Of a DNA stretch of 64,000 nt, positions 13,869 to 42,479 are shown in pieces. The position numbers and the translations under genes were made by a program. The stretch is from Scatophagus argus (lineage: Eukaryota > Chordata > Actinopteri > Scatophagidae): contig NC_058508.1 in NCBI RefSeq assembly GCF_020382885.2, forward strand, positions 6,130,055-6,194,054. Direction: 5' to 3'. How positions within the stretch are numbered: the stretch's first letter is position 1; every line of letters begins with the position of its first letter. Under the pieces are notes generated by a model. That model was not told where the DNA came from and ran no database searches. It saw only the letters and a program-made list of their open reading frames with translations.

Positions 13869-14248
13869 CATCCATCCATTTTCTATACCGCTTATCCGTC
13901 AGGGTCGCGGGGGAGCTGGAGCCTATCCCAGCTGACTACGGGCGAGAGGCGGGGTTCACCCTGGACTGGTCGCCAGTCAATCACAGGGCTGACACACAAA
14001 GACAGACAACTACACACTCTCACACTCACCTAGGTGTGAGTAAGAGAGTGTGTGGTTGTTTGTCTGGCAATGTAGAGCCGCCAATTAACCTAATGTGCAT
14101 GTTTTTGGTATTGTGGGAGGAAGCCGGAGTACCCAGAGAAAACCCACGCAGGCACAGAGAGAACATGCAAACTCCACACAGAAGGGCCCAGACCGGGATT
14201 CAAACCTGCAAAGTGCTAACCACTGTACCATGCAGCCCCCCGCACACG
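13869..14248. repeat. Truncated teleost interspersed repeat with (ATCC)n end, LINE/SINE-like
   Basis: It begins with (ATCC)n, then TTTTCTATACCGCTTATCC, GGGTCGCGGGGGAGCTGGAG, CCTATCCCAGCTGACTACGG, CCTGGACTGGTCGCCAGTC, ACACTCACACTCACC, GGAGGAAGCCGGAGTACCC and AACATGCAAACTCCACACAG. This series is found thousands of times in teleost genomes. The tetranucleotide tail at one end suggests a 5'-truncated retroposed copy on the minus strand; the exact clade is not assigned. Apparent frames inside it (for example 14036-14284) are not genes. Confidence 0.75.
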
Positions 14249-16340
14249 AAACAAGCCACTTTTATGTCACGTGGACATAGCTGATTTAAGGTTTCAACCA
14301 CAGATGGTCTTCCTCGCGTCCAAAAGAACATGTGAACGCTTCTTCAGCAGGCAATTAATGATGAAACATCTCACCATCGTGTCCTAATTAGCCCACGTGA
14401 ATCATCTGACGTGAGTCATTTTCAGAAAGATAAAACACTGATTTTTCTAATCTTATTTCCTTCATGTGGCAAGGCCTGAATGTAGGGGGGTCATCCCTGA
14501 GTCTGTGATGTGAACTGGGGCTTGGGACATCCAGAGTTAATGATCCAAGTTTCAGGACACTGCAACATGTTCACAAACATGCTGACATATTTGTCATCAC
14601 AACTTTTTGGCTACTCTTCCCACCAGGGACTATACGTCCGCCTGCAATCTATGACTGTTGACCATTTATTCATTTCCTTTAATTAATTATTTGAACTGTG
14701 TAGCTTAAATACTTCCGTTTGTTCTTTTTCCACTTCTCCCTTGCTATGTAGCATCTGTGTGGGCGCTGCAGCGGATTCAATGTGAATATATCTTCAAATC
14801 ATAATTTCTATTTTTTTCTAAACTTGTTGAGCAGGGTACTTTCCACAGTCTTTTCACGACCACCCCCACACCCCCAGCACCTGCCTGTTTGAGATCACTG
14901 TAACATAGTAGCATAGCATACAAAATACAACAGGCCACAGATAGTTGTATTAGTCTAACAGTAAACTTTGTTATATGTATACACATTGTGTTAAGCAATA
15001 AAGGCAACCATGTCGTATGTCCAGCAGGGCAACACGGGCGGCAGCTCTGTGCCCTGCACCACAAGGCGCCTCCAGCTTCTGCAAGCAATCCTATCAATTG
15101 TCTAGTGAGGAAGCAGGTGTTAGTCCATTGTACGTTGGCTGTACTGCTGTTGCTTTGTTTGCACATGTTAAAGTGGAAAGACGAGCGAGTAGTAAAAGAA
15201 CTGTCAAATTTACGGCTGCCCCTCCTTCATAATATTACTGAGGGTCCTGTCAGCACTTCAGTAATATATTAAACACTAAACTGTGTATGCTGTGTATTTC
15301 TGAATGCACTCCTATCAGCTATGAGCAGCATTGAAAAGAAGGGGAACAGGAAACCTGCAGAGCTTGAAGAACACTTTGCAGTTAGATTTGATGGAAGTTG
15401 TGTAACGCAGGCGTGTTCCTAACAGGCAAAGAATATGTAAGCAGAAAATGTATGCTGTGGCACCTCTGGCCAACCTGTGACAGGCAGGGGACATACAGAT
15501 GCATGGACTGTCCTGTAAATAATGATAATGTTGAAAAAAAGGATGAGAAAAGGAGCAATTAGCAGGGAGCAACATAACTCTTACCTATATCTGTTGTTAT
15601 CAGTGTCCTCGATCATATCAGATCAGCCGCAGCCGAGACACACCAGCGGAGGGAAACAATACAGAGACCACATCCTCCAGTGCTCATGCTTTTCAAAAGC
15701 AGACCATTCAGCTACAGAGCCGAAAGAGAATGTGCCTCAAAACAGGAACTGGATGTGTGTTTAGGCTTTTAATATCATAGGAGGAGTCTTTATTTGACAG
15801 ACCTCATTGGACACAAATCACTGACACGGGTCAATGAAACGCTGCTGTGCAAAACAAAACAAAACAAAAAAAAAACGAGCAAAGCTAAAGACATGAACAA
15901 TATTAGGTGTCAATAGTCACGCCAAGGACATTGACAGTTCTTGATTCTAAAGTGCAGATTGAATGTATTAAGCAAATAAACAACCTCAAAGTTAACTGGA
16001 GCTTTAACAAAATCAGGCCACGCTGAGTTGAAATACGGCCACTTCTGGTTTAAATGCCAATTCCGAAACGCAAAAAACGTCAGGATTCAGCATTCAGTAA
16101 TCCCCAATACTTAAATTAAAAAAAATTGGCCAAGCAAATGCTCAGTATTGTCTATTGGTGATTATGCTAAGGAACGCTAATCATATTAATTGGCTGACAT
16201 ATGCAAGAAAGCATCCAGCAGTTTTCTAAATGCTAAATCTAAACTTTGGGTACTCAGCATTTCCAGGGTGACATTGCAAGCAAGTAGACTTATCAAAAAA
16301 ATGCAGTGGAATGAAAAGTGCAATATTTATACTTTAAACT
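14249..16340. other. Non-coding stretch between PIK3R5 and the HMG/PLEKHF array
   Basis: No exon with family resemblance was found. A moderately GC-rich patch near 15,000-15,120 gives short overlapping frames on both strands (maximum 129 codons) without recognisable motifs. An A-rich tract lies at about 15,848-15,876. Confidence 0.45.
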
Positions 16341-16343
16341 GGA

Positions 16344-16480
16344 TTACACTGAAAAAATAGTGTTGGACCAACTCAAATGAATTGCTTCAGTTGGTAACAA
16401 GCAATTGAATTGAGTTTATCCAACTTAATTTTAATTTAATGAGTTAATATAACTTATTAAAATTAAGTTGGATAAACTAA
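16344..16480. repeat. Palindromic MITE-like element with perfect 23-bp inverted repeat
   Basis: The arms at 16413-16435 and 16456-16478 are exact reverse complements (AGTTTATCCAACTTAATTTT...), separated by 20 AT-rich bases. The segment is preceded by TTACACTGAAAAAATAGTG and GTTGGACCAACTC, the style of short AT-rich teleost MITEs starting CACTGAAAAAA. It lies about 270 bases from the left breakpoint of the tandem array. Confidence 0.7.
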
Positions 16481-16738: not shown

Positions 16739-18117
16739 CTATGTATACTGAGTCTGTCCATGTGCAGCTGAGGCTGTGCAGTGATTGGAAGGGGCTCGAG
16801 CTGCTCCGTCATTGGCTGGGTAGCTTGTCTGTGACTGGCTGATATACGTCTGTGTGTGAGTTGGTGGAGGCGAATGAACTGGAAGCTGTTGCTGGAACAT
16901 CCAGTCAGGAGGCAGGGACAACGTCACATACTGAATGCTGGGCTCTAACACATCTGTGTGTCTGTGAGGCTCGAACACATCTGTGTGTCTGTGAGGCTCA
17001 AACACATCTGTGTGTCTGTGAGGCTCGAACACATCTGTGTGTCTGTGAGGCTCGAACACATCTGTGTGTCTGTGAGGCTCGAACACATCTGTGTGTACGT
17101 GAGGCTCGAACACATCTGTGTGTCTGTGAGGCTCGAACACATCTGTGTGTACGTGAGGCTCGAACACACCTGCGTATGCGTGAGGCTCGAACGCACCTGC
17201 GTGTGCGTGAGGCTCAAACACATCTGTCTGTGGGACCAAGGCCTCCGTCACTGCTGTCTGCACTGGAGTCACACACACTTTCTTGGCCTGCTGTGTTTCA
17301 TCTTCAGGTTTGGATGCAGAGGCAGCTACACAATCAGACAGAAACACAGATCAGTTTTCTAAACCTTTCAAAACAAGATGGTGTTTCTGAAACCTGCGTT
17401 AAACAACATTTTAATACCAACACTGAATCAAATGACATTTAATTTGAAAAAGTCACAGTTTGTGTTGATGATTCTGATTTCTTATTTGCTTTGTAAAAAT
17501 CGTCAGTTCAGTCTTCAGTTAAAGACTTTATGTCAGTGTCGTCGTTCACTGCAGGGAAGCTGTTTGTGTCATTTATATTAAATCTACTAAAATGTAGACC
17601 AACACTGAACTTCATATCTTCAAAGTGTGAGTGAGTTGGTTTCTGCTCCTCAGTCTCTTGTATCGATGTTAAACGGTCAATAGCTTTCCAAAATGCAGAA
17701 TTAATCCTTAAAAGTCCACACATCATCTAGTTTTCATGACATTTCACATGAAAACACGCTGTGATTCACAGAAATATGCTCTTACCTTCAGCACAGGTGG
17801 GCTTCCTTCTTCTTTCTCTCTTCCTCTTTTTGCCCTGCACAAAAACAAACGCGACACACTTTGCATTTGACATCAGCTGAGAAAAACTCTTTGCAGTGAG
17901 TGTGTGTCGTCAGCTCTTGTGTAGTGTGTGTGTCGTGAGCTGTGTGTGAGCAGGGTGTACTTACATAGTTGTGACTGGACGACCACTCCGGGTGCTGCTG
18001 GGCGTGGAGCCGTCTTTCTCTGTCGGCCTGTTCGTAATATGTGGCCTGCTGTTCCTGTGACAGTGACTTCCACTGTGGGCGGACAACAACAAGACGTTAG
18101 ATAGCATGTACACACAC

Positions 18118-18173
<56 letters not shown>

Positions 18174-20282
18174 GCGCGCAGGACATTTCAGTCACACAAT
18201 GCTGCAAAATCCTTTAGAGTTCAGTTTGTTCTCTGATCATAAAACAGTAAATGAAAAGCTAAATATCAGATTTGGAGTTAGAGGTGTGAGACACTGAGTG
18301 TCTCAAACGTACAGAACCAAAACACTTACCTTCTGTCCCAGGACCGTGTTTACAGCCGCATTCCCTCGGCTTCTGATTTCGGCCTCAACGTGTGGCCTTT
18401 GCTCATTCAGGAACAGCATGAAGGCGTTTGGGGGCTTCTTTATATACTGACCGCCCTCCTGCTGGTTTTGACGCTTTCTCTTTCTATTGGACAAAAACAG
18501 AGAGAGAGGAGGTGATGTTACAAGAGTGGAAACACAAGATGTGTGTAAGATTGAACCTTGTCTCTGCTGTACTGTCCACTAAAACACATTAAGAGACACT
18601 GATTATAATCATATTCATGCAGAACATCAGTGGACAAACAACAGACACCTGAAATCAAACAACAGCTGATTGAAACTAAATAAAAGAAGATCCTAATTTG
18701 AATTTGTGTCTGACTTATTCATGTTGACCACAATCACAACTCATGAGAATTATGAAAATTACATTCGTGACCAAAACTGTCCAGAGCAAACTTACTTTGA
18801 TTTGGATGCGTCTGCTGGAGGAGCAGCAAAGACAGCAGGAGCACAAATCTCATACAGCGGCTGTCCATTCCTACACACATAAACAGAGACGGATACACAC
18901 TTCAGGTGGTAGGTCGAGTGTGTGTGACGATTAAAACTGAAACTCAGTAGCTGTGTTCACTCATGTTTTCACTCATGTGTGTGTTACTTACCACAGTCCT
19001 ACATAACGCAGGCTCTGGTTGCCTTCAAGGAACCCCGTCACTGGTATGCTGTTGTGCTGGAGACACAAACAGACACAGAACAGGTGATTTGACATGCTGC
19101 AGTGGCATCATCTGTCCCCTAGGTGTCAGGATGTTCCCTCCTCATAAATTCTAATAACTTTGAATGAGCTGCTGTCAGACACATCTGGAGGAACTACGGC
19201 ACTGAGGTATAGAGCTACGATATGTTTCTGTTGAAGGTCACAGAGGTCAGGAGTGTGTCGTCATGTGAAGGTCAGGTGACCACAGAGCAAAAAGCTGCGG
19301 TCACCTCAAATCCCAAAGTTATTTGGTTGTCAACACAAAAGCAAATTTGCCAGAAGAGAATAACTGAAAAGATGAATCAGTTATCAAAATAGCCACACAG
19401 TCGTGTTTTACAATTAATCACATTCAACGCATGTGAAGGGACAACAAAGTGATTTCACATTCAGATTTGTTTCTTGCTTCATTTTGACATAAAACATCCA
19501 ACACTGATAGCACGTGTATCAGTACAGGTACTCATAGACTCCTAATGATACCTGTGCCTGGCCTATGCTGAGTATCCTACCTGTCCCTGACTGGAAGCAC
19601 CTGCCTGACTGTGCAGGTGACCTGGCTGCATGTCTTCTTGACGTGGTGCATAGTTCATGGGGGGAGCTGTCGACAATTGACTTTGCTGCTTGACCCTCTG
19701 AGGAGCTGCTCCCAGGGAGCTACAGCCACCATATCCTCCCTCCTCCAGCTCAGCATGGACAGGAGGAGGAGGTGAAGGTGAAAATGAAGGTGAAAGAGGC
19801 AGCAGGTCGGGTGCGTCATCCAGAAGATCAAATCCATCCGACTTGAGAATGGAGTGCAACTCTCCCCAGATCTGATCTGCAACGTTATTGTCAGACTCTT
19901 GAGGATCCGTTTTGGAGGATGATTGTTGTGCTGAGGGTGGGTGTTGAGGGTAGGTATTGTGCCTCTTCTCAGCATTGACAGGAGGAGGTGAGGTTGAAGG
20001 TGGAGTGTGAGGTGCTTCATCCACTAAATCAACTCCAGCAGACTTGAGAATAGACAGCAAGTCTTCCCAGGAATTGTCTGCTACACCACAGTCAGCCTCC
20101 TGGAGCTCCGTCTCAGCATTGACAGGAGCATGTGAAGTTGAAGGTTGGGGTGAAGTAGATGGTGGTAGAGTATTCGGCGCTTCATCCACTAAATCTACTC
20201 CAGCCGACTTGAGAATAGACAGCAAGTCTTCCCAGTCGTTATCTGTCATGGTGCTGTCAACCTGCTCAGGTAACAGATCCAT
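16739..20282 (-). CDS. Divergent TCF/LEF-type HMG-box protein, array copy 1
   Basis: Probable nuclear DNA-binding protein. Coding exons: 20282-19581, 19056-18992, 18870-18796, 18483-18330, 18072-17965, 17834-17786, 17325-16739; all phases agree, giving 579 codons plus stop. Exon 1 starts MDLLPEQVD and holds two 55-residue repeats beginning WEDLLSILKSAGVDLVDE, plus a degenerate one (WGELHSILKSDGFDLLDD). Exons 4-5 encode the HMG box (KKPPNAFMLFLNEQRPHVEAE ... LGQK / WKSLSQEQQATYYEQA ... HPEWSSSHNY), and exon 6 the basic tail GKKRKRERRRK, as in TCF/LEF. Exon 7 has ten 9-residue VFEPHRHTD-type repeats and ends GQTQYT. No classical beta-catenin-binding N-terminus or C-clamp is seen. The neighbouring PLEKHF gene is divergent. 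Family membership is clear; the orthologue is not, so no symbol is given. Confidence 0.85.
16945..17223 (-). repeat. Coding 27-bp minisatellite, copy 1 (10 units)
   Basis: Tandem 27-bp units on the minus strand encode VFEPHAHAG, AFEPHAYAG, VFEPHVHTD and then mainly VFEPHRHTD, ending at VLEPS. Variant units lie at the N-terminal end and near-identical ones at the C-terminal end, a sign of recent expansion there. Because 27 is a multiple of 3 and the unit lacks stops in several frames, long artefactual open frames appear on both strands. Confidence 0.95.
18107..18170. repeat. (CA)n microsatellite in the HMG-box intron, copy 1
   Basis: An almost pure CA tract sits between the two exons that split the HMG box. 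It differs in length and interruptions among the three units (about 29,026-29,081 and 40,148-40,202 in units 2 and 3). The cysteine/valine-rich frames across it are artefacts. Confidence 0.93.
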
Positions 20283-23505: not shown

Positions 23506-24809
23506 ATGGATCAGATAACATTCGATAAAGAAAATGATGAGCGTATCAAAGCAGTGGAGAATTCATTCGGTGCATCAGGGAGGTCCTTGTCCAAATCAGG
23601 TCGGATTCTGATGGGACAGGGCCGTCTGATGAAGCAGGGTCGTCGGAAACCCCAGCCTAAGGATTTCTTCCTCTTCAACGATGTTCTTGTGTACGGCAGC
23701 GTCATTCTGAACGGCCGCTTTCACAAAAACCAGAAGATAATCCCTCTAGGTGAGCAGCTTCCCTGCTAATACATGCATTTGTCACTGCTTTGGTGTTGTC
23801 TTTTTTAAAACTTTGCATAATTCACATGATCTAATACATCTTATGGCTATTAATCCAATTAAATAGAAAAGCAGTAAAAAAAAAATATTCTAAACCACCT
23901 CTAAAAATGTCCACAGATGACCGAAACTTCTCCCAGTTAAACTTTTTTTTTTTCTGTAGAACAAAAACAGGATTTTTCTTTCTGTTAAATGTGTTTTTTG
24001 AAAAACATGGAATTAGTTGCACTCCCATTACACTGATTCAGCTACAGGAGTTTCAAAGGCAAATATCTCGAACCCTCAGCCAAAAAGCAAAATTATTAGT
24101 CCTGCTGAATGTCTGAAGAGAAGCTCAGAACGTATTTGATGATTTGTATTACAGTAAGCTCAGTTCACTGTGAGCCATAACTGCCAAACTCTGATTTCTT
24201 GGTGGACAAGCATTTTGACAGTCCATATTACATAATCAGTATGTCTTCTTCTCTGTCATTTCAGAGGACATTGAGCTGGAGGACATGGAGGACAGTCTGG
24301 ATGTGAGGAACCAATGGCTGATCCGTACGCCGCGCAAGTCGTTTTTTGTGTCCGCGCCTTCACACGAGGAGAAGCAGGCCTGGATTGAGCACATCAAAGA
24401 GTGCCGGTCAGGCCTGCTGCAGGACGGCAGCTGCCAACGTGGTTCCAGCTTTGCTGTTACCTGGATCCCAGACCGGGCCTCCTTCAGATGCATGCGCTGC
24501 TTCAACAAGTTCACAACAACCAAACGTCGACACCATTGCAGAAAATGTGGCTTTCTGGTGTGCAATTCATGCTCCAAACAGCGAGCAGTGATTAACCACA
24601 TTCATCCCACTAAGAGACTGAGGGTCTGCAGTCTCTGCCACACTCAGAACAAAGAAGAAGATGAGATATCTCGACTGAGGGGGGACAGTGCTGGAATGAA
24701 TAGCTTAGAGGGCGAAGATGTGGCAGCATCCAGTGATGAAGACGAGGGAGTGGGAATGATTCAATGCTACGCTCAGAGCAGCTGGCTGGACACTTGGAGG
24801 AGCCATTAA
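23506..24809 (+). CDS. PLEKHF-like (phafin) PH-FYVE protein, copy 1
   Basis: Phosphoinositide-binding endosome/lysosome adaptor family. Exons 23506-23749 and 24265-24809 join in phase (IIPL/EDIELEDM), giving 262 residues (human PLEKHF1 279, PLEKHF2 249). An N-terminal PH domain runs from about GRILMGQGRLMKQ through FFLFNDVLVYG to KQAWIEHIKEC. The FYVE finger follows with WIPD, CMRC, the RRHHCRKCG basic motif, CNSC and RVCSLC, so all signature zinc ligands and the PI3P pocket are present. The C-terminus is acidic (ASSDEDEG), as in the family. The start is the only ATG that gives the family N-terminus (DERIKAVENSFGASG). Polyadenylation signals AATAAA lie at 24865 and 25155. It could be a PLEKHF1 or PLEKHF2 paralogue; I do not choose. 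Confidence 0.92.
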
Positions 24810-27649: not shown

Positions 27650-29023
27650 CTACGGAGGACACTGAGTCTGTCCATGTGCAGCTGAGGCTGTGCAGTGATT
27701 GGAAGGAGCTCGAGCTGCTCCGTCATTGGCTGGGTAGCTTGTCTGTGACTGGCTGATAGACGTCTGTGTGTGAGTTGGTGGAGGCGAATGAACTGGAAGC
27801 TGTTGCTGGAACATCCAGTCAGGAGGCAGGGACAACGTCACATACTGAATGCTGGGCTCTAACACATCTGTGTGTCTGTGAGGCCCGAACACATCTGTGT
27901 GTCTGTGAGGCCCGAACACATCTGTGTGTCTGTGAGGCTCGAACACATCTGTGTGTCTGTGAGGCTCGAACACATCTGTGTGTCTGTGAGGCTCGAACAC
28001 ATCTGTGTGTCTGTGAGGCTCGAACACATCTGTGTGTCTGTGAGGCTCGAACACATCTGTTTGTGTGTGAGGCTCGAGCACACCTGCGTATGCGTGAGGC
28101 TCGAACGCACCTGCGTGTGCGTGAGGCTCAAACACATCTGTCTGTGGGACCAAGGCCTCCATCACTGCTGTCTGCACTGGAGTCACACACACTTTCTTGG
28201 CCTGCTGTGTTTCATCTTCAGGTTTGGATGCAGATGCAGCAACACAATCAGACAGAAACACAGATCAGTTTTCTAAACCTTTCAAAACAAGATGGTGTTT
28301 CTGAAACCTGCGTTAAACAACATTTTAATACCAACACTGAATCAAATGACATTTAATTTGAAAAAGTCACAGTTTGTGTTGATGATTCTGATTTCTTATT
28401 AGCTTTGTAAAAATCGTCAGTTCAGTCTTCAGTTAAAGACTTTATGTCAGTGTCGTCGTTCACTGCAGGGAAGCTGTTTGTGTCATTTATATTAAATCTA
28501 CTAAAATGTAGACCAACACTGAACTTCATATCTTCAAAGTGTGAGTGAGTTGGTTTCTGCTCCTCAGTCTCTTGTATCGATGTTAAACGGTCAATAGCTT
28601 TCCAAAATGCAGAATTAATCCTTAAAAGTCCACACATCATCTAGTTTTCATGACATTTCACATGAAAACACGCTGTGATTCACAGAAATATGTTCTTACC
28701 TTCAGCACAGGTGGGCTTCCTTCTTCTTTCTCTCTTCCTCTTTTTGCCCTGCACAAAAACAAACGCGACACACTTTGCATTTGACATCAGCTGAGAAAAA
28801 CTCTTTGCAGTGAGTGTGTGTCGTCAGCTCTTGTGTAGTGTGTGTGTCGTGAGCTGTGTGTGAGCAGGGTGTACTTACATAGTTGTGACTGGACGACCAC
28901 TCCGGGTGCTGCTGGGCGTGGAGCCGTCTTTCTCTGTCGGCCTGTTCGTAATATGTGGCCTGCTGTTCCTGTGACAGTGACTTCCACTGTGGGCGGACAA
29001 CAACAAGACGTTAGATAGCATGT

Positions 29024-29085
<62 letters not shown>

Positions 29086-31359
29086 GCGCGCAGGACATTT
29101 CAGTCACACAATGCTGCAAAATCCTTTAGAGTTCAGTTTGTTCTCTGATCATAAAACAGTAAATGAAAAGCTAAATATCAGATTTGGAGTTAGAGGTGTG
29201 AGACACTGAGTGTCTCAAACGTACAGAACCAAAACACTTACCTTCTGTCCCAGGACCGTGTTTACAGCCGCATTCCCTCGGCTTCTGATTTCGGCCTCAA
29301 CGTGTGGCCTTTGCTCCTTCAGGAACAGCATGAAGGCGTTTGGGGGCTTCTTTATATACTGACCGCCCTCCTGCTGGTTTTGACGCTTTCTCTTTCTATT
29401 GGACAAAAACAGAGAGAGAGGAGGTGATGTTACAAGAGTGGAAACACAAGATGTGTGTAAGATTGAACCTTGTCTCTGCTGTACTGTCCACTAAAACACA
29501 TTAAGAGACACTGATTATAATCATATTCATGCAGAACATCAGTGGACAAACAACAGACACCTGAAATCAAACAACAGCTGATTGAAACTAAATAAAAGAA
29601 GATCCTAATTTGAATTTGTGTCTGACTTATTCATGTTGACCACAATCACAACTCATGAGAATTATGAAAATTACATTCGTGACCAAAACTGTCCAGAGCA
29701 AACTTACTTTGATTTGGACGCGTCTGCTGGAGGAGCCGCAACGACAGCAGGAGCACAAATCTCATACAGCGGCTGTCCATTCCTACACACATAAACAGAG
29801 ACGGATACACACTTCAGGTGGTAGGTCGAGTGTGTGTGACGACTAAAACTGAAACTCAGTAGCTGTGTTCACTCATGTTTTCACTCATGTGTGTGTTACT
29901 TACCACAGTCCTACATAACGCAGGCTCTGGTTGCCTTCAAGGAACCCCGTCACTGGTATGCTGTGTTGCTGGAGACACAAACAGACACAGAACAGGTGAT
30001 TTGACATGCTGCAGTGGCATCATCTGTCCCCTAGGTGTCAGGATGTTCCCTCCTCATAAATTCTAATAACTTTGAATGAGCTGCTGTCAGACACATCTGG
30101 AGGAACTACGGCACTGAGGTATATAGCTACGATATGTTTCTGTTGAAGGTCACAGAGGTCAGGAGTGTGTCGTCATGTGAAGGTCAGGTGACCACAGAGC
30201 AAAAAGCTGCGGTCACCTCAAATCCCAAAGTTATTTGGTTGTCAACACAAAAGCAAATTTGCCAGAAGAGAATAACTGAAAAGATGAATCAGTTATCAAA
30301 ATAGCCACACAGTCGTGTTTTACAATTAATCACATTCAACGCATGTGAAGGGACAACAAAGTGATTTCACATTCAGATTTGTGTCTTGCTTCATTTTGAC
30401 ATAAAACATCCAACACTGATAGCATGTGTATCAGTACAGGTACTCATAGACTCCTAATGATACCTGTGCCTGGCCTATGCTGAGTATCCTACCTGTCCCT
30501 GACTGGAAGCACCTGCCTGACCGTGCAGGTGACCTGGCTGCATGTCTTCTTGACGTGGTGCATAGTTCATGGGGGGAGCTGTCAACAATTGACTTTGCTG
30601 CTCGACCCTCTGAGGAGCTGCTCCCAGGGAGCTACAGCCACCATATCCTCCCTCCTCCAGCTCAGCATGGACAGGAGGAGGAGGTGAAGGTGAAAATGAA
30701 GGTGAAAGAGGCAGCAGGTCGGGTGCGTCATCCAGAAGATCAAATCCATCCGACTTGAGAATGGAGTGCAACTCTCCCCAGATCTGATCTGCAACGTTAT
30801 TGTCAGACTCTTGAGGATCCATTTTGGAGGATGATTGTTGTGCTGAGGGTGGGTGTTGAGGGTAGGTATTGTGCCTCTTCTCAGCATTGACAGGAGGAGG
30901 TGAGGTTGAAGGTGGAGTGTGAGGTGCTTCATCCACTAAATCTACTCCAGCAGACTTGAGAATAGACAGCAAGTCTTCCCAGGAATTGTCTGCTACACCA
31001 CAGTCAGCCTCCTGGAGCTCCGTCTCAGCATTGACAGGAGCATGTGAAGTTGAAGGTTGGGGTGAAGTAGATGGTGGTAGAGTATTCGGCGCTTCATCCA
31101 CTAAATCTACTCCAGCCGACTTGAGAATAGACAGCAAGTCTTCCCAGGAATTGTCTGCTACACCACAGTCAGCCTCCTGGAGCTCCGTCTCAGCATTGAG
31201 AGGAGCATGTGAAGTTGAAGGTTGGGGTGAAGTAGATGGTGGTAGAGTATTCGGCGCTTCATCCACTAAATCTACTCCAGTCGACTTGAGAATAGACAGC
31301 AAGTCTTCCCAGTCGTTATCTGTCATGGTGCTGTCAACCTGCTCAGGTAACAGATCCAT
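27650..31359 (-). CDS. Divergent TCF/LEF-type HMG-box protein, array copy 2
   Basis: Same structure as copy 1: exons 31359-30493, 29968-29904, 29782-29708, 29395-29242, 28986-28879, 28748-28700 and a last exon ending at 27650. Differences are as follows. There are three full 55-residue N-terminal repeats instead of two (exon 1 is 165 bases longer). The HMG box has LKEQRPHVEAE instead of LNEQ. Ten 9-residue repeats are present, two of them VFGPHRHTD. The C-terminus is GQTQCPP instead of GQTQYT. The acceptor used by copy 1 for the last exon reads TG here (expected exon start 28239). The nearest in-frame AG is 24 bases further in (exon start 28215), which would delete eight residues. No stop or frameshift is seen in the other exons. 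Confidence 0.8.
27859..28137 (-). repeat. Coding 27-bp minisatellite, copy 2 (10 units)
   Basis: Units encode VFEPHAHAG, AFEPHAYAG, VLEPHTQTD, five VFEPHRHTD and two VFGPHRHTD. The third unit (VLEPHTQTD) differs from copy 1 but resembles copy 3, so copies 2 and 3 are the closer pair in this tract. Confidence 0.95.
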
Positions 31360-34519: not shown

Positions 34520-35790
34520 ATGGATCAGATAACATTCGATAAAGAAAATGATGAGCGTATCAAAGCAGTGGAGAATTCATTCGGTGCATCAGGGAGGTCC
34601 TTGTCCAAATCAGGTCGGATTCTGATGGGACAGGGCCGTCTGATGAAGCAGGGTCGTCGGAAACCCCAGCCTAAGGATTTCTTCCTCTTCAACGATGTTC
34701 TTGTGTACGGCAGCGTCATTCTGAACGGCCGCTTTCACAAAAACCAGAAGATAATCCCTCTAGGTGAGCAGCTTCCCTGCTAATACATGCATTTGTCACT
34801 GCTTTGGTGTTGTCTTTTTTTTTTTTATTAATCCAATCAAATAGAAAAGCTGTAAAATAAAAAATATTCTAAACCATCTCTAAAAATGTCCACAGATGAC
34901 CGAAACTTCTCCCAGTTAAACATTTTTTTTTTATCTGTAGAACAAAAACAGGATTTTTCTTTCTGTTAAATGTGTTTTTTGAAAAACATGGAATTAGTTG
35001 CACTCCCATTACACTGATTCAGCTACAGGAGTTTCAAAGGCAAATATCTCGAACCCTCAGCCAAAAAGCAAAATTATTAGTCCTGCTGAATGTCTGAAAA
35101 GAAGCTCAGAACGTATTTGATGATTTGTATTACAGTAAGCTCAGTTCACTGTGAGCCATAACTGCCAAACTCTGATTTCTTGGTGGACAAGCATTTTGAC
35201 AGTCCATATTACATAATCAGTATGTCATCTTCTCTGTCATTTCAGAGGACATTGAGCTGGAGGACATGGAGGACAGTCTGGATGTGAGGAACCAATGGCT
35301 GATCCGTACGCCGCGCAAGTCGTTTTTTGTGTCCGCGCCTTCACACGAGGAGAAGCAGGCCTGGATTGAGCACATCAAAGAGTGCCGGTCAGGCCTGCTG
35401 CAGGACGGCAGCTGCCAACGTGGTTCCAGCTTTGCTGTTACCTGGATCCCAGACCGGGCCTCCTTCAGATGCATGCGCTGCTTCAACAAGTTCACAGCAA
35501 CCAAACGTCGACACCATTGCAGAAAATGTGGCTTTCTGGTGTGCAATTCATGCTCCAAACAGCGAGCAGTGATTAACCACATTCATCCCACTAAGAGACT
35601 GAGGGTCTGCAGTCTCTGCCACACTCAGAACAAAGAAGAAGATGAGATATCTCGACTGAGGGGGGACAGTGCTGGAATGAATAGCTTAGAGGGGGAAGAT
35701 GTGGCAGCATCCAGTGATGAAGACGAGGGAGTGGGAATGATTCAATGCTACGCTCAGAGCAGCTGGCTGGACACTTGGAGCAACCATTAA
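34520..35790 (+). CDS. PLEKHF-like (phafin) PH-FYVE protein, copy 2
   Basis: Exons 34520-34763 and 35246-35790 give 262 residues, nearly identical to copy 1. Visible protein differences are KFTATK versus KFTTTK in the FYVE finger, and a final TWSNH versus TWRSH. All FYVE signature residues (WIPD, RRHHCRKCG, RVCSLC) and the PH core are intact. The first exon is unchanged between copies. The proximal AATAAA (35846) is kept, while the distal signal of copy 1 is ATTAAA here. It probably encodes an active protein, as far as sequence can show. Confidence 0.92.
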
Positions 35791-38638: not shown

Positions 38639-40145
38639 CTACGGAGGACACTGAGTCTGTCCATGTGCAGCTGAGGCTGTGCAGTGATTGGAAGGGGATC
38701 GAGCTGCTCCGTCATTGGCTGGGTAGCTTGTCTGTGACTGGCTGATAGACGTCTGTGTGTGAGTTGGTGGAGGCGAATGAACTGGAAGCTGTTGCTGGAA
38801 CATCCAGTCAGGAGGCAGGGACAACGTCACATACTGAATGCTGGGCTCTAACACATCTGTGTGTACGTGAGGCCCGAACACATCTGTGTGTCTGTGAGGC
38901 TCGAACACATCTGTGTGTACGTGAGGCCCGAACACATCTGTGTGTCTGTGAGGCTCGAACACATCTGTGTGTCTGTGAGGCCCGAACACATCTGTGTGTC
39001 TGTGAGGCTCGAACACATCTGTGTGTCTGTGAGGCGCGAACACATCTGTGTGTCTGTGAGGCCCGAACACATCTGTGTGTCTGTGAGGCTCGAACACATC
39101 TGTGTGTACGTGAGGCTCGAACACATCTGTGTGTCTGTGAGGCTCGAACACATCTGTGTGTCCGTGAGGCTCGAACACACCTGTTTGTGTGTGAGGCTCG
39201 AGCACACCTGCGTATGCGTGAGGCTCGAACGCACCTGCGTGTGCGTGAGGCTCAAACACATCTGTCTGTGGGACCAAGGCCTCCGTCACTGCTGTCTGCA
39301 CTGGAGTCACACACATTTTCTTGGCCTGCTGTGTTTCATCTTCAGGTTTGGATGCAGATGCAGCAACACAATCAGACAGAAACACAGATCAGTTTTCTAA
39401 ACCTTTCAAAACAAGATGGTGTTTCTGAAACCTGCGTTAAACAACATTTTAATACCAACACTGAATCAAATGACATTTAATTTGAAAATGTCACAGTTTG
39501 TGTTGATGATTCTGATTTCTTATTAGCTTTGTAGAAATCGTCAGTTCAGTCTTCAGTTAAAGACTTTATGTCAGTGTCGTCGTTCACTGCAGGGAAGCTG
39601 TTTGTGTCATTTATATTAAATCTACTAAAATGTAGATCAACACTGAACTTCATATCTTCAAAGTGTGAGTGAGTTGGTTTCTGCTCCTCAGTCTCTTGTA
39701 TCGATGTTAAACGGTCAATAGCTTTCCAAAATGCAGAATTAATCCTTAAAAGTCCACACATCATCTAGTTTTCATGACATTTCACATGAAAACACGCTGT
39801 GATTCACAGAAATATGCTCTTACCTTCAGCACAGGTGGGCTTCCTTCTTCTTTCTCTCTTCCTCTTTTTGCCCTGCACAAAAACAAACGCGACACACTTT
39901 GCATTTGACATCAGCTGAGAAAAACTCTTTGCAGTGAGTGTGTGTCATCGGCTCTTGTGTAGTGTGTGTGTCGTGAGCTGTGTGTGAGCAGGGTGTACTT
40001 ACATAGTTGTGACTGGACGACCAGTCCGGGTGCTGCTGGGCGTGGAGCCGTCTTTCTCTGTCGGCCTGTTCGTAATATGTGGCCTGCTGTTCCTGTGACA
40101 GTGACTTCCACTGTGGGCGGACAACAACAAGACGTTAGATAGCAT

Positions 40146-40205
<60 letters not shown>

Positions 40206-42479
40206 GCGCGCAGGACATTTCAGTCACACAATGCTGCAAAATCCTTTAGAGTTCAGTTTGTTCTCTGATCATAAAACAGTAAATGAAAAGCTAAATATCA
40301 GATTTGGAGTTAGAGGTGTGAGACACTGAGTGTCTCAAACGTACAGAACCAAAACACTTACCTTCTGTCCCAGGACCGTGTTTACAGCCGCATTACCTCG
40401 GCTTCTGATTTCGGCCTCAACGTGTGGCCTTTGCTCATTCAGGAACAGCATGAAGGCGTTTGGGGGCTTCTTTATATACTGACCGCCCTCCTGCTGGTTT
40501 TGACGCTTTCTCTTTCTATTGGACAAAAACAGAGACAGAGGAGGTGATGTTACAAGAGTGGAAACACAAGATGTGTGTAAGATTGAACCTTGTCTCTGTT
40601 GTACTGTCCACTAAAACACATTAAGAGACACTGATTATAATCATATTCATGCAGAACATCAGTGGACAAACAACAGACACCTGAAATCAAACAACAGCTG
40701 ATTGAAACTAAATAAAAGAAGATCCTAATTTGAATTTGTGTCTGACTTATTCATGTTGACCACAATCACAACTCATGAGAATTATGAAAATTACATTCGT
40801 GACCAAAACTGTCCAGAGCAAACTTACTTTGATTTGGACGCGTCTGCTGGAGGAGCAGCAACGACAGCAGGAGCACAAATCTCATACAGCGGCTGTCCAT
40901 TCCTACACACATAAACAGAGACAGATACACACTTCAGGTGGTAGGTCGAGTGTGTGTGACGATTAAAACTGAAACTCAGTAGCTGTGTTCACTCATGTTT
41001 TCACTCATGTGTGTGTTACTTACCACAGTCCTACATAACGCAGGCTCTGGTTGCCTTCAAGGAACCCCGTCACTGGTATGCTGTTGTGCTGGAGACACAA
41101 ACAGACACAGAACAGGTGATTTGACATGCTGCAGTGGCATCATCTGTCCCCTAGGTGTCAGGATGTTCCCTCCTCATAGATTCTAATAACTTTGAACGAG
41201 CTGCTGTCAGACACATCTGGAGGAACTATAGCACTGAGGTATAGAGCTACGATATGTTTCTGTTGAAGGTCACAGAGGTCAGGAGTGTGTCGTCATGTGA
41301 AGGTCAGGTGACCACAGAGCAAAAAGCTGCGGTCACCTCAAATCCCAAAGTTATTTGGTTATCAACACAAAAGCAAATTTGCCAGAAGAAAATAAATGAA
41401 AAGATGAATCAGTTATCAAAATAGCCACACAGTCGTGTTTTACAATTAATCACATTCAACGCATGTGAAGGGACAACAAAGTGATTTCACATTCAGATTT
41501 GTTTCTTGCTTCATTTTGACATAAAACATCCAACACTGATAGCATGTTTATCAGTACAGGTACTCATAGACTCCTAATGATACCTGTGCCTGGCCTATGC
41601 TGAGTATCCTACCTGTCCCTGGCTGGAAGCACCTGCCTGACTGTGCAGGTGACCTGGCTGCATGTCTTCTTGACGTGGTGCATAGCTCATGGGGGGAGCT
41701 GTCAACAATTGACTTTGCTGCTCAACCCTCTGAGGAGCTGCTCCCAGGGAGCTACAGCCACCATATCCTCCCTCCTCCAGCTCAGCATGGACAGGAGGAG
41801 GAGGTGAAGGTGAAAATGAAGGTGAAAGAGGCAGCAGGTCGGGTGCGTCATCCAGAAGATCAAATCCATCCGACTTGAGAATGGAGTGCAACTCTCCCCA
41901 GATCTGATCTGCAACGTTATTGTCAGACTCTTGAGGATCCGTTTTGGAGGATGATTGTTGTGCTGAGGGTGGGTGTTGAGGGTAGGTATTGTGCCTCTTC
42001 TCAGCATTGACAGGAGGAGGTGAGGTTGAAGGTGGAGTGTGAGGTGCTTCATCCACTAAATCAACTCCAGCCGACTTGAGAATAGACAGCAAGTCTTCCC
42101 AGGAATTGTCTGCTACACCACAGTCAGCCTCCTGGAGCTCCGTCTCAGCATTGACAGGAGCATGTGAAGTTGAAGGTTGGGGTGAAGTAGATGGTGGTAG
42201 AGTATTCGGCGCTTCATCCACTAAATCTACTCCAGCCGACTTGAGAATAGACAGCAAGTCTTCCCAGGAATTGTCTGCTACACCACAGTCAGCCTCCTGG
42301 AGCTCCGTCTCAGCATTGACAGGAGCATGTGAAGTTGAAGGTTGGGGTGAAGTAGATGGTGGTAGAGTATTCGGCGCTTCATCCACTAAATCTACTCCAG
42401 TCGACTTGAGAATAGACAGCAAGTCTTCCCAGTCGTTATCTGTCATGGTGCTGTCAACCTGCTCAGGTAACAGATCCAT
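38639..42479 (-). CDS. Divergent TCF/LEF-type HMG-box protein, array copy 3
   Basis: Exons 42479-41613, 41088-41024, 40902-40828, 40515-40362, 40110-40003, 39872-39824 and a last exon ending at 38639. It has three full N-terminal 55-residue repeats and an HMG box identical to copy 1 in exon 4 (LNEQRPHVEAE). The 9-residue tract is expanded to fifteen units, so the last exon is 135 bases longer. The C-terminus is GQTQCPP, as in copy 2, and the last-exon acceptor (expected start 39363) reads TG, as in copy 2. All other splice sites and phases are intact. Unlike copies 1 and 2 it has no PLEKHF partner, because the unit is truncated at 43,319. Confidence 0.8.

Follow-up and report, generated by a model that had tools for sequence, protein, structure and literature searches.

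Tandem TCF-type genes of Scatophagus argus: a candidate Wnt-uncoupled branch in percomorph fishes

TCF/LEF proteins are described as four vertebrate subfamilies plus an extra teleost TCF7L1, with five genes each in medaka and pufferfish (PMC9303524, section 9). The TCF7L1 subfamily is marked by N or S at position 43 of the HMG box and S at position 64 (PMC9303524). Isoforms of TCF7 and LEF1 that lack the β-catenin-binding domain (BCBD) are dominant negatives (PMC8651982). In LEF-1, the core Groucho sequence RFSHHMIP is required for repression, and the HMG domain holds a second, weaker Groucho contact (PMC2701438).

We analysed a window of 64,000 nucleotides of contig NC_058508.1 from the scat Scatophagus argus, in which a sequence-only reading had described one gene of TCF/LEF type. 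The gene is real; it lies on the minus strand, with its ATG at 20282 and the end of its stop codon at 16739, and its seven exons are separated by introns that are all GT..AG:

16739..20282, minus strand: copy 1, whole HMG gene; 7 exons, 571 amino acids with the gaag/ATG acceptor for exon 7
19581..20282, minus strand: exon 1; N-terminal helix units and Pro-rich linkers
18992..19056, minus strand: exon 2; SIPV...NQSLRYVGLW, corresponding to the NNVPVV segment in relatives, strand 1 of a predicted hairpin
18796..18870, minus strand: exon 3; NGQPLYEICAP...ADASKS, strand 2 of the predicted hairpin
18330..18483, minus strand: exon 4; first part of the HMG box (Pfam, solved-structure match)
17965..18072, minus strand: piece between exons 4 and 6, assigned from exon anatomy and Pfam
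17786..17834, minus strand: exon 6; basic tail / NLS exon GKKRKRERRRKPTCAE
16739..17301, minus strand: exon 7; C-terminal tail, His/Pro-rich, read as in P0001 and P0144

The final 291 amino acids are identical to the S. argus database protein P0144. One exon boundary interrupts the HMG box and another precedes the basic tail; the same exon order is given for chordate TCFs (PMC9303524). The resemblance of exon 3 to the canonical GQPMYPI..NASMS segment is suggestive of equivalence, not being significant by itself. Intron 1 yielded no YLPYQWP exon of the kind found in other species, and no counterpart of a β-catenin-binding exon was found within the window.

The gene is one of three near-identical tandem copies, two of which the sequence-only reading had overlooked. 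The repeated genomic unit, of about 11 kb, also carries a PH + FYVE gene, which we take to be plekhf1-like:

27650..31359, minus strand: copy 2; 7 exons, 627 amino acids, 3 + 1 N-terminal units
38639..42479, minus strand: copy 3; 7 exons, 672 amino acids, 3 + 1 N-terminal units, 16 nine-mers
23506..24809, plus strand: PH + FYVE gene, first copy; Pfam matches FYVE and a portion of PH in 24219-24809
35200..35790, plus strand: PH + FYVE gene, second copy, main exon ORF; by Pfam and unit comparison

The window pieces tested for neighbours gave p101 PI3K adaptor, FYVE/PH and myosin genes in place of the dbnl/fgfr1 neighbourhood of TCF7L1. An array of this kind, raised by unequal crossing-over, could consist of young, decaying duplicates of little function. 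The dN/dS values among the three copies (0.98, 0.59 and 0.60) do not demonstrate constraint; the HMG exons differ at 1, 2 and 3 of 311 bases, a similarity no greater than that of the adjoining introns; repeat numbers drift; and copy 1 ends in ..TQYT instead of ..TQCPP, a change that falls where the unit similarity stops. By contrast, all three copies keep open frames (571-672 codons) with usable splice sites, and the same architecture is found in relatives across many percomorph species. We regard decay as improbable.

The HMG box and basic tail had been read as TCF/LEF-type, and profile and structure comparisons agree. The box of copy 1 matched Pfam with an E-value of 1e-16, and its best match by sequence among solved structures was LEF1 (2lef, E 9e-25), which scored 91 bits versus at most 48 for SOX-type boxes. 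LEF1 2lef also came first when the model of relative P0001 was compared by fold (55% identity). The tail, NYGKKxKR, is present in 3/3 copies and 45/61 relatives; in copy 1 it follows the box on an exon of its own (exon 6).

These relatives, similar yet divergent, share the architecture and occur in many percomorph (spiny-rayed) fishes. The set examined comprised 61 percomorph proteins, labelled 'TCF7L1-B', 'pop-1-like', 'SOX-14' and so on; P0010, P0090 and P0104 were kept out as an isoform or for a broken HMG box, and P0084 for no special reason, while from the many further relatives of a later search only P0118 and P0120 were put in a tree. N8 and F10 of the HMG box are conserved in 61/61 and M11 in 59/61. 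Several species have both a TCF7L1 with PF08347 and family members, among them Larimichthys (P0094; P0018, P0020) and Epinephelus (P0162; P0013), and Thalassophryne P0118 looks intermediate. Literature searches of titles and abstract openings returned no paper on this fish TCF family.

A classical β-catenin-binding segment had been reported missing from the gene, and we likewise found none. With E allowed up to 1, PF08347 was not among the Pfam matches of copy 1; it was absent from five relatives searched with a limit of E 10, and was not among the 25 of 51 families listed for 42 relatives. The β-catenin-binding core motif occurred in 0/3 copies and 0/61 relatives, versus 23/24 percomorph TCF7L1 and 17/20 other TCF/LEF proteins. 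The CtBP motif, a feature of the C-terminal tail of TCF7L1 present in 23/24 percomorph TCF7L1, was found in 0/3 copies and 1/61 relatives, and the C-clamp motif, which marks E isoforms of TCF7 and TCF7L2, in 0/61 relatives and 0/24 percomorph TCF7L1 versus 16/20 other TCF/LEFs. A weak Sigma70_r1_1 Pfam match (E 8e-4, under its cut-off; 1 of 42 relatives) was taken as chance.

The pattern for the Groucho site, which in TCF/LEF lies upstream of the HMG box, matched 0/3 copies and 0/61 relatives; it recovers just 12/24 percomorph TCF7L1 and 13/20 other canonical proteins and is thus not fully sensitive. This result weighs against the idea that the proteins are repressors recruiting TLE/Groucho through the pre-HMG segment (a predicted β-hairpin) or the HMG box. 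The resemblance of the pre-HMG region to the canonical one and the second Groucho contact in the LEF-1 HMG domain speak for such recruitment, to which we nevertheless give a low probability, slightly below that of decay.

We then considered descent. S43 is present in 45/61 relatives and in the window, and position 64 is A in 39/61, S in 13/61 and A in the window. The HMG positions specific to percomorph TCF7L1 that the family majority shares are only 19, 39, 43 and 46 (19, 39 and 43 in the window); positions 15, 17, 24, 26, 27, 32, 45, 55, 61, 64, 65 and 85 are unshared. Profile alignment of the pre-HMG region with that of canonical TCFs gave 26.4, as compared with at most 8.4 in 200 column shuffles and 12.2 for the reversed profile, and 25.0 when the basic tail was left out (shuffles at most 11.6). 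With the pre-HMG profile, shuffles reached a maximum of 6.8 bits, and 23/24 percomorph TCF7L1 proteins scored higher (up to 39.7); these 24 had been collected by searching with the profile of the family itself. Only 2/20 other TCF/LEFs exceeded the maximum, both of them bird TCF7L1 (8.9 and 8.6), in a set without TCF7 and without TCF7L1 of non-percomorph fish. The hairpin part alone was not significant (6.5 bits on P0093) and aligned elsewhere in one profile run. Because the pre-HMG segment matches percomorph TCF7L1 but few other TCF/LEFs, the family most likely branched off from TCF7L1 instead of forming a deep lineage of its own.

In an unrooted tree of 189 columns, the family was supported at 100/99, as was the branch parting canonical non-percomorph TCFs from percomorph TCF7L1 plus the family; two alternative placements were not rejected (p 0.28 and 0.25). 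In a quick tree of the HMG box only (89 rows), the family formed one side of a branch with an SH-aLRT of 59. A careful HMG tree had 67 rows, after removal of 8 long-branch and 15 near-duplicate or redundant rows and addition of one TCF7 sequence. Left free, it did not recover the family as one group (0/200 bootstrap trees), though constraining the family to stay together gave a better tree (p-AU 0.89). Topology tests on the HMG box rejected the grouping of the window with TCF7L1, LEF1 or TCF7 alone (p-AU ≤1.4e-4, TCF7 being one sequence). Not rejected were groupings of the window with all canonical TCFs (p 0.29) or with the SOX outgroup (p 0.85), and of the entire family with LEF1 (p 0.51). 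The HMG box by itself is, on these alignments, too short to place the family or to fix the root and deeper order.

The database names TCF7L1-B, LEF1, SOX-14 and SRY-like would make the genes SOX-type or plain orthologues of one of TCF7, LEF1 and TCF7L1, and the root and deeper order left unsettled by the HMG-only trees give such names some room. We consider this very improbable, given the rejected single-subfamily groupings, the presence of PF08347 TCF7L1 beside family members in Larimichthys and Epinephelus, and the margin of LEF1 over SOX-type boxes. The phylogeny that the sequence-only reading had called for rejects orthology to TCF7L1, LEF1 or TCF7 alone, on short HMG data. Its new TCF/LEF branch holds as a distinct group with many percomorph relatives, but most likely as a derivative of TCF7L1 and not as a deep lineage.

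Repeats at both ends of the protein, as originally noted, were confirmed. The N-terminal units of copy 1 are 55 residues apart (W17 and W72), with a third, degenerate unit at W139; the W codons lie at about 20234, 20069 and 19868. The His/Pro-rich 9-residue units at the C-terminus, spaced always by 9, number 11, 11 and 16 in copies 1, 2 and 3, and coincide with 27-bp arrays:

16941..17231, minus strand: array of copy 1, coding 9-mers TDVFEPHRH; TRF 10.8 units
27855..28145, minus strand: array of copy 2; TRF 10.8 units
38844..39269, minus strand: array of copy 3; TRF 15.8 units

A few other family members have C-terminal repeats, with a period mostly of 10. In the alignment, the lone N-terminal helix found in other species falls on the degenerate third unit of copy 1, which suggests that the near-identical 55-residue repeats were amplified in the scat lineage. 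Helices were predicted at the matching units of relative P0001 and, in P0008, at the N-terminus (block pLDDT 76-87). A W-E-D-L-L-S-like helix is conserved across distant lineages in the alignment, a strict regex finding it in only 27/61 relatives, and amphipathicity was unremarkable in 3 of the 11 tested. By eye, the helix resembles that of the β-catenin-binding domain (DVLSTL versus DVKSSL); homology between the two was rejected, as the hhalign score of 3.0 was matched by 70/200 column shuffles.

Internal duplications ahead of the HMG box were sought with an ungapped diagonal scan of the 61 members, 58 of which were long enough, and of most canonical proteins (percomorph TCF7L1, 22 of 24; other TCF/LEFs, 17 of 20). 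The scan detected them in 17/58 family members versus 0/22 and 0/17 canonical proteins; the 17 include P0027, an RCC1-like fusion model, and 7 others that repeat non-helix stretches. The duplicated units vary in length between lineages. Recurrent N-terminal duplication in other lineages fits multivalent docking by the repeated helix, which we infer as a possible function.

These observations also bear on whether the proteins could be pure competitors that block TCF sites in the manner of ΔN TCF7/LEF1, with the helix and both repeat arrays as neutral filler. The missing β-catenin and Groucho matches, the dominant-negative behaviour of BCBD-less isoforms and the minisatellite nature of the 9-mer array, with its varying unit number, are consistent with this. 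Retention of the helix in distant lineages, its predicted fold in P0008 and the recurrence of N-terminal duplication with differing unit lengths argue otherwise, and we consider the filler account unlikely, if less so than decay or TLE recruitment.

We favour, as reasonably probable, the interpretation that the tandem genes belong to a TCF-type branch of percomorphs, probably derived from TCF7L1, whose products are Wnt-uncoupled factors at TCF sites. A tcf7l1-type gene would have been duplicated in a fish ancestor, and its HMG-box exons and part of the context-dependent region placed under a new N-terminal exon. The protein is predicted to be nuclear and to use the HMG box and basic tail that it has retained for binding to CCTTTGAT-type sites. 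Without the β-catenin segment, it would not be switched on by Wnt and would compete with ordinary TCFs. In the least certain step, the N-terminal helix, which most species have singly and the scat in three to four units, may dock a putative transcription cofactor, with unit number setting avidity. More tentatively, the tcf7l1 duplicate may have founded a fast-evolving, tandemly amplified, Wnt-deaf percomorph subfamily in which a new N-terminal cofactor-docking helix was multiplied repeatedly in separate lineages and repeat number sets Wnt-target output; we find this broader version doubtful. If true, a multicopy Wnt-uncoupled branch would add factors able to disturb Wnt readout across a very large group of vertebrates, and would account for the misleading labels SOX-14, SRY-like and LEF1. 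Natural differences in helix number would offer a direct test of multivalent cofactor docking.

Among known systems, lamprey TCFc likewise has no exon I or II (the β-catenin part) found for it (PMC9303524, section 11); unlike the scat genes, it encodes a C-clamp, one isoform of it has been observed, and it is not described as tandemly arrayed. ΔN isoforms of TCF7 and LEF1 are also TCF-type HMG proteins minus the β-catenin-binding domain (PMC9303524, PMC8651982), but they are made as alternatives to full-length protein from the same genes. SOX, HBP1 and capicua share the sequence-specific HMG fold; their HMG scores are lower, and among the four alignments shown the NYGKKKKR tail occurs only in LEF1. 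Percomorph TCF7L1 resembles the family in its HMG box and basic tail, S at HMG 43, the missing C-clamp and the YLPxQWPxxDVP..NNVPVV segment that relatives carry ahead of the box. The family differs from it in showing no β-catenin or Groucho motif, a CtBP motif in one relative only, neighbours, in the window pieces tested, other than those given for TCF7L1 (PMC9303524), a new N-terminal helix and repeats.

We characterized the HMG gene of Scatophagus argus (spotted scat) by examining its anatomy and the tandem array in which it lies. The sequence-only reading of an HMG gene with repeats at both ends was borne out by the gene anatomy and the repeat counts. The first of the three tandem copies (copy 1) is organized as follows:

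20282..16739, minus strand: copy 1 HMG gene, seven exons with GT-AG introns
Exon 1: N-terminal helical units and proline-rich linkers
Exons 2 and 3: short segment NQSLRYVGLW/NGQPLYEI, with the intron at the slash
Exons 4 and 5: HMG box, with the intron after LGQK
Exon 6: basic tail, alone in its own exon
Exon 7: His/Pro-rich tail carrying the 9-residue repeats

The nearest database protein to copy 1 is P0001 (LOC124073230, S. argus; 91% identity), and another S. argus protein, P0144, equals copy 1 exactly over the C-terminal 291 residues, which start at KKRKRQNQQ. P0144 is named 'sex-determining region Y protein-like' in the database. These matches point to spotted scat as the most likely source of the window. 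Both proteins match splicing at gaag/ATG for exon 7; an alternative acceptor for this exon, gattgtgtag, is present in copy 1 and absent from copies 2 and 3 (31359..27650 and 42479..38639, minus strand).

Besides the HMG gene, the repeat unit of ~11 kb carries a PH + FYVE gene, which is present in two copies; the array thus arranged (16747-43320) holds three HMG and two FYVE copies. In a self-comparison of the window, copy 1 was 99.0% identical to copy 2 over a 3489 bp block and 98.4% identical to copy 3 over a 3295 bp block. Copies 1, 2, and 3 encode 571, 627, and 672 residues, each with a single terminal stop, and contain 2+1, 3+1, and 3+1 N-terminal units (55-residue helical repeats with a WEDLL-type motif) and 11, 11, and 16 C-terminal TDVFEPHRH-type nine-mers, respectively. 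The pairs 1-2, 1-3, and 2-3 differ at 5, 6, and 6 codons synonymously and at 18, 14, and 13 non-synonymously (dN/dS 0.98, 0.59, and 0.60). Only 1, 2, and 3 of the 311 bases of exons 4 to 6 differ in these pairs, but this near-identity is no sign of constraint, because the adjoining introns differ equally little. The similarity of the units stops within the final codons of copy 1, whose C-terminal end reads TQYT as against TQCPP. Right past the array end lies an AT-rich inverted repeat, MITE-like by eye (16354-16480; AATTGAGTTTATCCAACTTAATTTT ... AAAATTAAGTTGGATAAACT), and a stretch at 13870-14250 (CAGTCAATCACAGGGCTGACACACAAAGACAGACAA) resembles a dispersed repeat, presumably one common in fish.

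Other genes in the window, judged by eye, are presumably WBP11 and DDX47. Pfam searches with eight pieces identified a p101-type PI3K adaptor (PF10486), the PH + FYVE genes, and a myosin; no Pfam match was obtained for the first exon of the FYVE gene or for the pieces at 49 and 51 kb. Since dbnl and fgfr1 adjoin TCF7L1 loci, according to PMC9303524 (section 9), and the neighbors here are others, the scat array most likely occupies a locus other than that of TCF7L1.

Protein searches, each scoring the ~8000 candidates with the most shared words, gave 75, 59, and 137 proteins (the best 120 of the 137 for the last), so that the range of fish groups obtained is a lower bound. PF08347, the β-catenin-binding domain (BCBD), marked 25 of the first 75 as ordinary TCF/LEFs, and 47 of the other 50 were fish proteins. 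From the 75- and 59-protein searches we examined 61 relatives, hereafter the family. S. argus and Syngnathus typhle both belong to Percomorphaceae, and we take the remaining named fishes to be percomorphs as well. Family members occur together with PF08347-bearing TCF7L1-type proteins in Larimichthys crocea (P0018 and P0020 with P0094), Epinephelus coioides (P0013 and P0016 with P0162), Etheostoma spectabile (P0017 with P0152), and Amphilophus citrinellus (P0087 with P0194); the family therefore adds to TCF7L1 and does not replace it. Database names among the listed family-like proteins include TCF7L1-A/B/D, LEF1, pop-1-like, SOX-5/9/10/14/17/30, SRY-like, ataxin-7, and formin-like. The HMG cassettes of P0118 (the toadfish Thalassophryne) and P0036 (Oryzias) seemingly lie downstream of zinc-finger-protein-like N-termini, which we take to be of a fish type (VIKEEVPIEQDEW), and that of P0044 (Synchiropus) follows what we assume is a gag-like stretch; these unions may reflect true fusions or faulty gene models. 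The P0002 (Archocentrus) and P0116 (Pholidichthys) models have several HMG boxes per protein, possibly tandem arrays fused by annotation read-through. For medaka and two pufferfish, PMC9303524 describes a complement of five TCF/LEF genes, and its sections 9, 12, and first half of 11 do not mention the family.

We addressed the origin of the family with two regions of the protein. In HMG-box trees the window grouped with the family, and its placement with TCF7L1, LEF1, or TCF7 alone was rejected (p-AU 1.4e-4 or lower). The family formed one side of a branch in a quick tree, with an SH-aLRT of only 59; a free careful tree split it, and the best tree keeping it whole surpassed that one by 7.9 log units (p 0.89). 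Four groupings were not rejected: the family as a whole joined to TCF7L1 (p 0.85) or to LEF1 (p 0.51), and the window joined to the canonical TCFs together (p 0.29) or to the SOX outgroup (p 0.85). The 86 HMG columns are thus weak data, because conflicting groupings all pass. The family majority has four percomorph TCF7L1 states (19P, 39Q, 43S, and 46K; twelve others differ), of which the window has 19P, 39Q, and 43S.

The evidence on origin is clearer outside the HMG box. A family profile of the pre-HMG region, excluding the basic tail, gave 23 of the 24 percomorph TCF7L1 scores between 14.3 and 39.7 bits (P0189, 0.4); these 24 are the PF08347 rows from a search with the family's own profile, with the source named for 20. 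Among 20 other TCF/LEFs, just two, each a bird TCF7L1, exceeded the shuffled-sequence maximum of 6.8 bits; this set consists largely of TCF7L2, bird TCF7L1, and invertebrate TCFs, LEF1 being represented once and TCF7 not at all. Before the HMG box, TCF7L1 reads YLPFQWPLLDVP..NNVPVVQHP, as against YLPYQWPVxDVP..NNVPVVRLP in the relatives, the scat gene itself being without the YLPYQWP part, and P0118 (QNLQPVGWLYGDPVYAIGAGGFTPPYSAALPKNASMS) stands between TCF7L1 (HPLGWLQGQPMYPIAGGFSPAALAMNASMS) and the family. Equivalence of the family's hairpin stretch to the canonical LGWLxGQPMYPI is suggestive only: the two paired in two alignments, the stretch fell elsewhere in one profile run, and alone it scored 6.5 bits. 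In a 60-row tree built on 189 columns from the pre-HMG region and the HMG box, the family (100/99), percomorph TCF7L1 (89/85), and the other TCFs (100/99) came out apart from one another; if rooted among the last, the family is sister to percomorph TCF7L1, and two alternative placements also pass (p 0.28 and 0.25). All fish TCF7L1 compared are percomorph. The proposal of a new TCF/LEF branch finds support once modified to a percomorph, multicopy branch that most likely derives from TCF7L1.

Motifs for Wnt input were sought in the 61 members, the 24 percomorph TCF7L1, and the 20 other TCF/LEFs. The β-catenin core motif (0, 23, and 17, respectively) and helix motif (0, 22, and 13) were absent from the family, as was the Groucho site, whose pattern found only 12 and 13 of the comparison proteins. 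The CtBP motif occurred in 1, 23, and 12. Absence of the C-clamp (0, 0, and 16) is common to the family and TCF7L1, as no percomorph TCF7L1 matched. Five canonical N-termini (first 270 residues) gave nothing significant against the window (best E 0.18), and in a profile comparison the N-terminal helix did not come out as a diverged BCBD.

AlphaFold models of P0001 and P0008 have a confident HMG box, preceded by a small β-hairpin (block means up to 92 and 86, respectively). P0001 has helices at all three units (14-26, 71-81, and 127-149; block pLDDT about 60-70), and P0008 has two N-terminal helices (3-13 and 16-32; block means 76-87). By alignment, the degenerate third scat unit corresponds to the single helix found in other species. 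In 8 of 11 helix motifs, 33 to 153 of 2000 shuffles were at least as amphipathic; the remaining three motifs gave 362, 470, and 984 such shuffles. In a diagonal scan ignoring Pro-Pro matches, 17 of 58 members showed internal duplication ahead of the HMG box; neither of the two canonical sets did (0 of 22 and 0 of 17). The helix falls within the duplicated stretch in Scatophagus (offset 55), Epinephelus (113-115), Archocentrus (48), and Sparus (52). For Larimichthys (62) and Gouania (112), the duplicated part takes in an N-terminal stretch, so placed by position, and the other positives repeat stretches other than the helix. The differing offsets argue for separate events, as we infer. C-terminal repeats exceeded the self-match threshold in 7 of 61 members, with a period of 9 in P0001, 10 in P0005, P0008, P0017, P0021, and P0024, and 14 in P0047; the P0008 tail TGVMEAPHTQ aligns with scat TDVFEPHRH.

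That the scat protein binds TCF sites is suggested by its kept HMG box and basic tail and by the invariant HMG residues. The mechanism as a whole is inferred: without the β-catenin and Groucho segments the protein would be cut off from both Wnt switches, and a separate output would come from the N-terminal helix. RFSHHMIP is the main Groucho site of LEF-1, with a weaker second contact in the HMG domain (PMC2701438), so the scat protein may retain a residual Groucho contact. By analogy with TCF7 and LEF1 isoforms without the BCBD, which act as dominant negatives according to PMC8651982, it would compete with ordinary TCFs. In its exon order the scat gene is like the chordate TCFs as described in PMC9303524, with a split HMG box and a separate basic-tail exon, the likeness being one of order, by description.
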